IMG/VR virus record: IMGVR_UViG_3300006919_000570 | Span: 1 to 21,232 of that record | Source: a virus | Length of the DNA stretch: 21,232 nucleotides | Reading direction: 5' to 3' (one strand) | Shown here: piece by piece, positions 18,797 through 21,232 of the stretch | How positions within the stretch are numbered: the stretch's first letter is position 1 | Layout: each line of letters begins with the position of its first letter | Notes under the pieces: model-generated | Databases searched by the model: none | Told to the model about the DNA's origin: nothing | Seen by the model: the letters and a program-made list of their open reading frames with translations, nothing else | Made by a program: the position numbers and the translations under genes

Positions 18797-19189
18797 ATGG
18801 CAACAGTAACAACAAAATTAACAGTGTCTAGCTCAGACCTAACGTCTCAGATCTTAAGCTTATCCCTTAGTAAAGCTATTACAGCTTCGCACACAACAGG
18901 TTTAGCTAGGACAAAGGTAGGTCAAACAGCAGTACACGCTAGTGCAGCTCTTCTATATACCGCAGATGATTACGCAGCTACCGCTTACGTCTATATAAAG
19001 AATATAGATACAACAGCTACGAACTACGTGTACGTATACGATGATACTACATCTGGAGATCCTGTTATATTAAAGTTAGCTGGTGGGGAGTTTGCATTCA
19101 TGCCAACTAACGCTGACAAAACCTTAAAAGCTTACGGTACTAACGCAACTAGTGTTGTAGAATGGATGGTATTCGGTGTTGATCAATAG
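18797..19189 (+). CDS. Small beta-rich virion-type protein
   Basis: This 130-residue Thr/Ala/Ser-rich protein begins MATVTTKLTVSSSDLTSQIL and has strands such as ATAYVYIKNIDTTATNYVYVYD and ILKLAGGEFAFMPTN. This pattern is typical of short structural proteins in marine phages, for example head decoration or tail parts. No membrane segment or signal peptide is seen. It has its own promoter-like element. Its last 7 bp overlap the end of the convergent HNH gene, so the two transcripts would run into each other. Confidence 0.7.
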   Translation: MATVTTKLTVSSSDLTSQILSLSLSKAITASHTTGLARTKVGQTAVHASAALLYTADDYAATAYVYIKNIDTTATNYVYVYDDTTSGDPVILKLAGGEFAFMPTNADKTLKAYGTNATSVVEWMVFGVDQ

Positions 19190-19572
19190 GATCTAGATCG
19201 TAACCCTTTCTTGTAATCACTACTAGCTTTTTTGCAACCCTCACATCGGCATCCTCTTCTGTAGGATGCTGCTGAGGGGCAAGGAACCTTTGGAGAGTTA
19301 CCCCTAGACGCTTTATAATTACAACTTTTGTGAGAGAATGCTATATTCTCAATATCAAAAAATAACCCCTTAGGATCTTCTGAATGAAGCCAAGGGGTTT
19401 TATGTTCTACACTCATATCATCTGAGTGCTCTATCTCTGCTGCACACTGAAAACACCAGTGCATATCTAACTTCTTCGCAAGCTCAAACATTAAAGTCTT
19501 CTTGAGCCTGTTCGCAGCAGTACCAGGATCCATACCCAACTGCTCCTTCTTTACATTCTTACTGTTATCCAA
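19183..19572 (-). CDS. HNH endonuclease
   Basis: This 129-residue protein has an HNH-type zinc-finger nuclease core: CFQC (40-43), SVEHKTPW (54-61) with the catalytic His57, a central Asn (76 in ENIAFSHKSC) and a second Cys/His group SHKSCN (80-85). The C-terminus CPSAASYRRGCRCEGCKKA (98-116) is a small module often attached to phage HNH proteins. It could act in DNA packaging or as a homing-type nuclease. The open frame begins with TTG at 19572, 2 bp after the stop of the 54-residue gene, preceded by an AGGAG sequence. The Met at codon 14 is an alternative start. It runs opposite to the fibre genes and converges with them. Confidence 0.85.
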   Translation of the reverse strand: MDNSKNVKKEQLGMDPGTAANRLKKTLMFELAKKLDMHWCFQCAAEIEHSDDMSVEHKTPWLHSEDPKGLFFDIENIAFSHKSCNYKASRGNSPKVPCPSAASYRRGCRCEGCKKASSDYKKGLRSRSY

Positions 19573-19574
19573 AA

Positions 19575-19739
19575 CTAAAAGATCTCCTCGTCTAAGGTTG
19601 TAACGTCTATATCTATAACGTTACCCTTCATGTCCTGTATTACAGCCACGTAATGAGAGTCTCCTACAAAGTGACCTGAAGCTACTATGTTTAACTCTGA
19701 ATCTTTTGGGGATATACCACCGTAAACGTTATCGAACAT
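19575..19739 (-). CDS. Small acidic protein of 54 residues
   Basis: The ATG at 19739 opens a 54-codon frame closed by TAG at 19575. The product begins MFDNVYGGISPKDSELN, continues SGHFVGDSHYVAVIQDMKGN and ends TTLDEEIF, a compact beta-type sequence without membrane segment. It lies 2 bp before the HNH frame in the same direction, so the pair probably share a message. The amino-acid mix is balanced, unlike the AT-rich chance frames nearby. No family is recognised. Confidence 0.55.
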   Translation of the reverse strand: MFDNVYGGISPKDSELNIVASGHFVGDSHYVAVIQDMKGNVIDIDVTTLDEEIF

Positions 19740-19871
19740 ATATCTTTAATTTTTTTGCAATTTATAAATTTTTTTTGAGATGTGAAAAGGGTGGGGGTTA
19801 TATATATAATCTGCGTGCGTGTTTCCATTCCCGAAACCGAAATCTCCGAAGGGGGTACCCGAATCCAAAAC

Positions 19872-19919
19872 CAATGCGTGCATTTCAAATGTCGATTATC
19901 TATTTTCAATGCGTGCATT
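19872..19919. repeat. Pair of AATGCGTGCATT repeats, 35 bp apart
   Basis: CAATGCGTGCATT occurs at 19872-19884 and again at 19907-19919. Each copy is itself an inverted repeat, AATGC-GT-GCATT, so the unit is a dyad of the kind a dimeric protein binds. The start-to-start spacing of 35 bp is about three and a third helical turns. Confidence 0.5.
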
Positions 19920-20076
19920 CTATCTACTATCTGTCTACTGCACAAAATTACGAGGGGATACCTAACATCATATACACGTACTGCAGTACTATATAAGAAT
20001 ACCTATTCACTATAGTATACTAAGGCATCAATTGATTGAGATAATCCATTAAACGGGCTGTAACGCAGTGAGAGAG

Positions 20077-20120
20077 AGGGTTAGAGGTGGAGTAATCCCC
20101 CAATCCTCTTAACTATCCCT
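20077..20120. repeat. Hairpin-forming inverted repeat
   Basis: GTTAGAGG (20080-20087) can pair with CCTCTTAAC (20105-20113) with one bulged base, and an outer AGG can pair with CCT at 20118-20120. The loop contains a smaller GGA/TCC pairing. No T run follows in either direction, so it is not a standard intrinsic terminator. It lies about 70 bp left of the operator dyads. Confidence 0.35.
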
Positions 20121-20191
20121 ACCCCCAAAGAATATACACTACTAAATTACCCCTCTTGAATCCCTTGGTATCAGTACATTCCTTAAATTAA

Positions 20192-20208
20192 TGTAAAAAT
20201 ACTTTACA
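20192..20208. promoter_or_regulatory. Operator-like dyad 1, TGTAAA-N5-TTTACA
   Basis: A perfect 6-bp inverted repeat (20192-20197 with 20203-20208) surrounds five bases. The same dyad, with the same spacing, recurs 30 bp to the right, so chance is unlikely. This copy lies just upstream of the -33 element. Confidence 0.6.
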
Positions 20209-20213
20209 CTTTA

Positions 20214-20245
20214 TTTGTGAGTGTAAAAACTATTTACAATATTTG
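20214..20245 (+). promoter_or_regulatory. Promoter for the structured RNA
   Basis: TTTG (20214-20217) is followed after 20 nt by AATATTTG (20238-20245), one mismatch from TAnnTTTG. The predicted start at about 20248-20252 coincides with the first base of the first strong hairpin of the RNA. The second operator dyad fills the space between the two elements, so a bound protein would block RNA polymerase. Confidence 0.55.
20222..20238. promoter_or_regulatory. Operator-like dyad 2, TGTAAA-N5-TTTACA
   Basis: A perfect 6-bp inverted repeat (20222-20227 with 20233-20238) surrounds five bases and is identical in arms and spacing to the dyad at 20192. It lies between the -33 and -7 elements of the RNA promoter, the classic place for repression. 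Which phage protein binds is unknown. Confidence 0.6.
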
Positions 20246-20247
20246 CA

Positions 20248-20905
20248 GAGCAGTTAGGGAATTATCTACTGCTCGTTCTTTCACATACTGATTCAGATAT
20301 AGCGTACAGCATTGTCGTTGGCTCTCCTTAGGGATTGCGTAAGACCAACATTAAGACATAGTATAGCATCTGAGTACTGAAAGCATCTCTTTAGTTTGCG
20401 AGTAGGTATAGAAGTACAGAGTATTCCTTTTATCTTGATTATGGGAAGTCAGTCTTAGTAACGATATATGAACGTAGCATTGCCTACCGAAGTATATTAG
20501 AGCAATAATTTAATCAGCGTTTGCAAGTATCGAATCAACTTGACGGAAACCACTGCCGACAACCAAGTGGGCTTGGATAGACCAATAGGCTATCATCAAG
20601 TTAGGTAAAACACCATAGAGCAATCCAATAAGATTGCGTACCGATTAATATGGGAAGTCTATCTGAGGATATGTTTAGATAGGTAGTAAGCAATTGAAGT
20701 ACTACCTTAATGAACTAAGACAAGATAGACAACACGCATTTGTATGAATGTTGCGTGTTTGAATGACAACATACAATTTTTGATTCGATGGGATGGAATG
20801 CAGTCTATGTGCTAACATAGGTAAAGTACAATGGTAGGTACTACTGCATCTCCCCTTTAAAGCTACCTAAGGCAGTTACAAGTCTGCATAAAAGCTGAGT
20901 AGAGG
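20248..20905 (+). ncRNA. Candidate large structured RNA, about 650 nt
   Basis: No open frame of 60 codons exists here on either strand, yet the sequence is full of perfect helices. From the 5' end: GAGCAGT/ACTGCTC (20248-20254 with 20268-20274); ATATA/TATAT around GTAG/CTAC (20464-20497); a possible four-way junction closed by AACTTGA/TCAAGTT (20537-20602); GCAATC/GATTGC with a 6-nt loop (20620-20637); CTATCT/AGATAG (20659-20682); AGGTAGTA/TACTACCT (20681-20707); AACACGCA/TGCGTGTT (20731-20759); a three-way junction (20798-20849) flanked by GGGA/TCCC; and GCAG/CTGC (20872-20887). The 5' end matches the predicted start of the regulated promoter. Size and phage setting are like the large ornate RNAs GOLLD and ROOL, but I cannot confirm homology by eye. 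The 3' end is uncertain. A long untranslated leader of the next gene is the alternative. Confidence 0.55.
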
Positions 20906-20939
20906 AAACATTAATCAATAACCTAAACAATTAGAAACT

Positions 20940-21122
20940 ATGGAAAACACTAAAGACACTTACAACTATTACACAGGCTCGAATGTAATAAATGGACTTA
21001 AAGAATGTATCTACTACATCAACGAAGTAACACCAGAAGATGAGCAAGGTAAGTACCATAAAGAGTTATTAAATAGCTTAGAAGATGCTATAAAACAATT
21101 AGAACCAAACATAAAATACTAA
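20940..21122 (+). CDS. Small helical protein downstream of the RNA
   Basis: This 60-residue acidic protein (MENTKDTYNYYTGSNVINGL, then KECIYYINEVTPEDEQG and an amphipathic LLNSLEDAIKQLEPNIKY end) is probably two helices. No family is recognised. No separate promoter is seen directly upstream, so it may share the transcript that starts at the RNA promoter. The leader before the ATG is A-rich (CCTAAACAATTAGAAACT) with no Shine-Dalgarno site. Another start codon follows 4 bp after its stop. Confidence 0.6.
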   Translation: MENTKDTYNYYTGSNVINGLKECIYYINEVTPEDEQGKYHKELLNSLEDAIKQLEPNIKY

Positions 21123-21126
21123 CACT

Positions 21127-21232
21127 ATGGGACAACACATTACAATAGGCTACCTACAATCTAAGATGATTCGTATGCCTTTAAACCTAAACACTAATTG
21201 GAACGAGGATATTAATTCACTATCCTCAATCC
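21127..21232 (+). CDS. Start of a protein, cut by the window edge
   Basis: An ATG at 21127 opens a frame that stays open for 35 codons to the edge: MGQHITIGYLQSKMIRMPLN, then LNTNWNEDINSLSSI. It follows the 60-residue gene by 4 bp on the same strand, as expected in a phage operon. Too little is present for a functional call. Confidence 0.5.
   Translation, partial: MGQHITIGYLQSKMIRMPLNLNTNWNEDINSLSSI

Follow-up and report, generated by a model that had tools for sequence, protein, structure and literature searches.

Here we describe a previously undescribed RNA of about 610 bases, outside every catalogued RNA family, that is restricted to a single group of uncultured phages and is predicted to owe its 3' end to a twister ribozyme of its own. 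It is encoded in IMG/VR virus record IMGVR_UViG_3300006919_000570, a stretch of 21,232 bp referred to below as the window, in which comparative analysis identifies positions 20246-20858 of the + strand as a conserved multi-helix non-coding RNA. No earlier description of such an RNA was found in the literature searched, whose reach excluded most subscription journals. Only a handful of large ornate bacterial and phage RNAs are known, and two of the phage ones form RNA nanocages of unknown purpose; this RNA, from a different phage group and unrelated to them in sequence, would add another class.

The original prediction for this locus had pointed to about 650 bases without a credible gene, and both coding scans agree: there is no open reading frame of at least 50 amino acids on either strand in 20016-20939, and the longest stop-to-stop run in 20246-20939 is 37 codons on the + strand and 54 on the - strand. 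The accompanying argument from tight gene packing, with gaps of 0-20 bp elsewhere, was not fully right, as the sequence immediately upstream (about 19740-20245) is another ~500 bases of non-coding DNA. Minimum free energy was lower than for shuffled sequence (z of -2.1 for 20247-20912; z of -2.5 for 20246-20858, with one of 100 shuffles as low), but only moderately so, and by itself such an excess is weak proof of a structured RNA.

Relatives were gathered through the terminase, a small protein of the structural region, a whole-record DNA search and pattern searches of IMG/VR. An RNA with the same core, here called type A, occurs on 13 other phage contigs: G001 (incomplete), G013, G016, G025, G026, G027, G028, G032 and the contigs of L171, L179, L191, L201 and L202. 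Type B RNAs, which have another core, are carried by four more contigs (G014 and those of L213, L214 and L216). There was no match among the 50,697 phage records of INPHARED, and the bacterial genomes (genome_contigs) contained neither the core nor the twister patterns as exact matches. The core (model R2) was not found in relatives outside the type A group, nor the twister in three named relatives; in many phages whose terminase is homologous there was no sign of the RNA, several of these contigs being fragments. A weak twister match (R1) in G033 was set aside as chance, since it lies within apparent coding sequence, and the pattern TTCAGCAGTCGGCT proved too short as a type B probe, its matches being mostly chance. 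The closest named relatives of the terminase belong to phages of Flavobacterium, Cellulophaga and Maribacter, together with an uncultured podovirus, and a marine member of the Flavobacteriia is the probable host.

The main evidence for a conserved fold comes from an alignment of 12 of the 14 type A RNAs, which are unevenly related. The RNAalifold consensus of these 12 sequences has 135 pairs, 43 of them changed on both sides. After adding the twister pseudoknots and a loop pseudoknot from a systematic covariation scan, the scored structure has 133 pairs, and 96.8% of cells across these pairs in the 12 sequences are paired. Scored on the same alignment from which the structure was derived, 45 of the 133 pairs change on both sides, where shuffles gave 19.0±2.8 (0 of 500 as high); counted by cell, there are 100 such changes against 27.7±4.4 (again 0 of 500). 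When the structure was slid by 1-3 columns in either direction, pairing collapsed to 33-40%, with 4-8 pairs changed on both sides. Shared ancestry does not explain the covariation, because this control keeps the relatedness of the sequences. Among relatives, one stem appears as CCACU/AGUGG, CCAUC/GAUGG and CUAUC/GAUAG, the stem AGGUAGUA/UACUACCU is replaced wholesale, and another reads GCAAUC/GAUUGC in some members and GGAU/AUCC in others. The RNA is assigned to the + strand because G-U cells far exceed A-C cells (171 versus 13 overall; 102 versus 13 at variable pairs). Covariation in related phages had been named as a check when this locus was first proposed to encode a large, structured non-coding RNA transcribed from a phage promoter, and homologs and compensatory changes now strongly favour that proposal. 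The predicted parts, all on the + strand, are as follows.

20246-20858: predicted mature non-coding RNA of ~613 nt, from 13 homologous contigs and covariation; 5' end from the promoter, 3' end from the twister
20248-20274: 5'-terminal hairpin GAGCAGU/ACUGCUC (covariation, helices 1-2)
20275-20503: 5' domain closed by GUUCU/AGAGC, from the alignment-based structure
20286-20460, 20293-20373, 20375-20404, 20463-20498 and 20474-20487: helices of the 5' domain, from the same structure
20425-20447: hairpin with a pseudoknotting loop, 20435-20443 pairing with 20509-20517 (two compensatory pairs)
20502-20657: most conserved core (type A), from the alignment-based structure
20520-20547, 20550-20570, 20571-20601, 20604-20614 and 20620-20637: core helices, from the same structure
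20657-20730: domain closed by GUCU/AGAC (helices 18-20), with a strongly covarying hairpin at 20681-20707
20733-20757: hairpin CACGCA/UGCGUG (helix 22)
20782-20792: element GAUUCGAUGGG, common to type A and type B RNAs
20790-20855: 3'-terminal stem abutting the cleavage site, the stem kept and its sequence varying among relatives
20854-20905: twister-P1 ribozyme without P3 (cmscan 44.7 bits, E of 2.9e-8 and 3.4e-9)

Relatives exchange the 5'-terminal hairpin for CAACAAUGAUU/AAUCGUUG or other stems. At the other end, the terminal stem borders the predicted cut in the members that were folded, despite unrelated sequences (one folding run, covering six members). A possible pairing between alignment columns 297-306 and 619-628 is complete in all members and has zero compensatory change; it is treated here as at most a possible alternative to the pseudoknot that covariation supports.

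Transcription is predicted to begin just ahead of the first hairpin. The established consensus for Bacteroidota promoters is TTTG/TAnnTTTG, and the following elements were recognized upstream of the RNA.

20192-20208, no strand assigned: operator-like palindrome TGTAAAAATACTTTACA, of the pattern TGTAAA-N5-TTTACA, also present in promoters of several relatives
20214-20245, + strand: Bacteroidota-type promoter predicted from sequence, with -33 element TTTG at 20214-20217, a 20 bp spacer and -7 element AATATTTG at 20238-20245
20222-20238, no strand assigned: operator-like palindrome TGTAAAAACTATTTACA, overlapping the promoter, likewise from sequence

The first hairpin begins a few bases 3' of this promoter, so that the 5' end of the RNA would lie at about 20246, in keeping with the transcript start that had been proposed. 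Several relatives have TTGACA-N-TANNTTTG in place of the window promoter. Two promoter versions were noted, one with TGTAAA-N5-TTTACA-like palindromes (the window, G013 and G016) and one of a plain TTGACA type (G025, G028, G032 and L202). Upstream of the promoter, a non-coding block at 19740-20190 is conserved in most of the aligned relatives and contains GGGGGTTATATATATAA..., CCGAAACCGAAATC..GGGGG, repeated TGCGTGCATT and AACG.AGTGAGAGAGAGGG; it is perhaps a replication origin or a minus-strand leader.

The 3' end appears to be set by a ribozyme. No Rfam family matches the window at its gathering threshold, and the twister-P1 match (44.7 bits, E of 2.9e-8) was seen only in a relaxed Rfam scan of 19700-21232; its alignment spans model positions 1-68, the full length, with no mispair (E of 3.4e-9). 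The score in the window, like those of its relatives (39.5-44.7 bits), falls below the gathering threshold of 67.2, a curation cut-off rather than a mechanistic feature, because P3 is missing. Helices P1, P2 and P4 and pseudoknots T1 and T2 form in every aligned member that bears a twister; P1, P2, P4 and T1 show compensatory changes and T2 is invariant. At T1 the consensus pair CCC/GGG is UAC/GUA in the window and UGC/GCA in G028, L202 and L214. The twister as a whole is compact and nearly invariant among relatives. Cleavage is predicted between U20858 and A20859, which would leave ...CCCCUUU at 20858 as the 3' end of the RNA. The original prediction ran the feature to 20905, which is the exact 3' edge of the twister match; the mature RNA should instead end at 20858. 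It had overlooked the ribozyme, along with the swappable core and a second type of 3' end. Minus-strand matches to mir-282 and FopS were at chance level.

A twister is present in 15 of the 18 related loci, the window and 14 others. Of the remaining three, G001 ends at a contig edge, and G026 and G027 carry another 3' element, sharing CUCUUUAYGGGAAUGUAYUGG at the twister position. In G026 (L140, about 1737-1892) this is a tRNA-like fold of ~150 nt with acceptor GGGAAU/AUUCCC and T-arm AGUGGUUCGAUUCCACU (AGUGG-UUCGAUU-CCACU), ending in ACTA; it was called neither by ARAGORN at default settings nor by Rfam. G027 has the first bases of the same element, which could be followed as far as the contig runs. 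An RNase P cut in G026 would give nearly the same 3' end as the twister, and replacement of the ribozyme by another element in these two phages would fit if the RNA requires a defined 3' end.

The type B RNAs have the 3' module of type A around a different core, and vary in how much of the 5' modules they share with type A.

L213, 1590-2220, - strand: type B RNA with the twister 3' module and a different core
L214, 5010-5620, + strand: type B RNA with the twister 3' module and a different core
L216, 37-673, + strand: type B RNA with the twister 3' module, a different core and also a different 5' domain
L143 (G014), 1282-1784, - strand: type B RNA with the twister 3' module and a different core, most of the 5' domain being absent

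Their structure, in which 13 of 58 pairs are compensatory across four sequences, is preliminary. The RNA is modular, with a core exchangeable for an unrelated one, which suggests a platform whose parts evolve separately.

Comparison with known RNAs places this one apart. To our knowledge no GOLLD RNA ends in a twister, and we know of no built-in ribozyme in ROOL. Kinship with these two RNAs, which had been suggested on grounds of size and phage location, was not borne out: neither the GOLLD (RF02032) nor the ROOL (RF03087) covariance model gave a match at E<=10 in eight of these phage records, although the ROOL model was also silent on the control genomes. GOLLD assembles into a 14-mer nanocage, and nanocage assembly and very high abundance mark ROOL. 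GOLLD is a large, ornate RNA of phages and prophages, with a conserved 3' part, a less conserved 5' part and a function that is unknown (PMC12286853). The RNA described here resembles it in being phage-encoded, ornate and hundreds of nucleotides long, and differs in that the window has no tRNA gene and that the RNA ends in a twister. ROOL is a phage-encoded RNA of ~600 nt, pseudoknotted and multi-branched, and one relative is at least as abundant as 16S rRNA (PMC5643018, PMC12286853); our RNA shares the size and phage origin and, in its predicted structure, the pseudoknotting and branching. Its ribozyme has the P1, P2, P4, T1, T2, U^A site and UAAA/GAG segments of twister-P1 (RF03160), but P3 is deleted and its predicted role is that of a 3'-end processor of a large RNA. 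The nearest precedent for a ribozyme maturing phage RNA is found in the HDV-like theta ribozymes of gut Caudoviricetes, which lie at tRNA ends and are thought to trim the 3' side of phage non-coding RNA (PMC10879173); they belong to another ribozyme class and mature tRNA rather than a large ornate RNA. ARAGORN called no tRNA or tmRNA in the window. The idea of a tmRNA, raised by the likeness of GAUUCGAUGGG to a tmRNA D-loop and of CUCGCAGUAGCUUAA to a tag end, was dropped: the sequence concerned forms a hairpin that covaries, and no tmRNA was found by either ARAGORN or cmscan (E<=0.1).

The RNA is followed by a small-gene operon.

20906-20939, + strand: leader ending in AACAATTAGAAACT, preceding the first small gene
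20940-21122, + strand: first downstream small gene, 60 aa, with no PHROG match and unrelated to the first gene of other phages

We consider it probable that the locus produces a stand-alone structured phage RNA that acts in trans and is set free by the ribozyme it carries. Polymerase would start at about 20246 and transcribe the RNA together with the twister and the small-gene operon; folding behind the polymerase, the ribozyme would cut at U20858/A20859, freeing an RNA of ~613 nt, and the 3' product would continue as mRNA. With a hairpin at each end and a 2',3'-cyclic phosphate, the freed RNA should be stable and separately abundant, and would fold into a multi-domain, pseudoknotted form that serves the infection alone or as a scaffold, either homo-oligomeric or for protein. 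The cleavage, abundance and timing of the released RNA are all inferred. By the precedent of GOLLD and ROOL (PMC12286853), formation of homo-oligomers is a fair guess, if a doubtful one. Equally tentative is a wider picture, that of a new superfamily of phage RNA machines built in modules, with common end modules around exchangeable cores, that would be freed by a 3' twister or, in some members, by RNase P cutting a tRNA-like element, and would form RNA-only oligomers or cages as marine flavobacteria are infected.

The ribozyme of the window lies only 34 nt ahead of the first start codon, where a cis-regulatory ribozyme would sit, and no separate promoter was seen in the sequence between the two. 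The RNA might thus be a leader that senses a signal and controls the twister, with cleavage tuning the stability or translation of the operon mRNA as in glmS. We regard this as unlikely. Across 14 phages, the genes that come first after the RNA share no relationship, one pair excepted, and the order of promoter and gene persists in relatives that lack the RNA, as in G020 and G021, where the promoter runs straight into the gene; since the downstream gene varies and some relatives do without the RNA, it is unlikely to be the leader of a particular gene. Exchange of the core for an unrelated one, next to a compact and nearly invariant twister, also speaks against such control.

A role in packaging, replication or priming, in which an RNA like the phi29 pRNA would bind the portal and terminase or a replication origin, seems very improbable. 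The RNA does lie where the late module gives way to the rightward operon, beside the conserved block of ~500 bp that is a possible origin; many relatives with a homologous terminase nevertheless show none, though several of these are fragments, and its size and structure go far beyond pRNA. A selfish RNA cassette, or a circular-RNA parasite of the phage akin to retrozymes or viroids, is hardly credible: self-cleavage, patchy presence and modular exchange would fit, but each locus has a single ribozyme, with none found at the 5' end, whereas circularisation needs two cuts or a repeat; moreover, no protein is encoded, and the RNA always follows a promoter and occupies a comparable position.

A stand-alone RNA would give natural twister ribozymes a concrete job, the maturation of a large RNA, and the 3' end defined by a built-in ribozyme would simplify preparing it with native ends for structural studies. 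In the named relative MW202828.1 the counterpart of the rightward operon runs on into replication genes, which places the RNA at the head of the early side. A repeated leader, ACAATTAGAAACTATG, precedes the downstream small genes. The leader (C)TAAACAATTAGAAACTATG stands at 20916-20942 and at many sites in L140, L141 and L146, before successive operon genes; it is perhaps a phage-specific translation signal, the host group making little use of Shine-Dalgarno sequences. An HNH endonuclease gene (phrog_23251; 19183-19572, - strand) adjoins the RNA locus, and in MW202828.1 an HNH gene is also found near the corresponding boundary.
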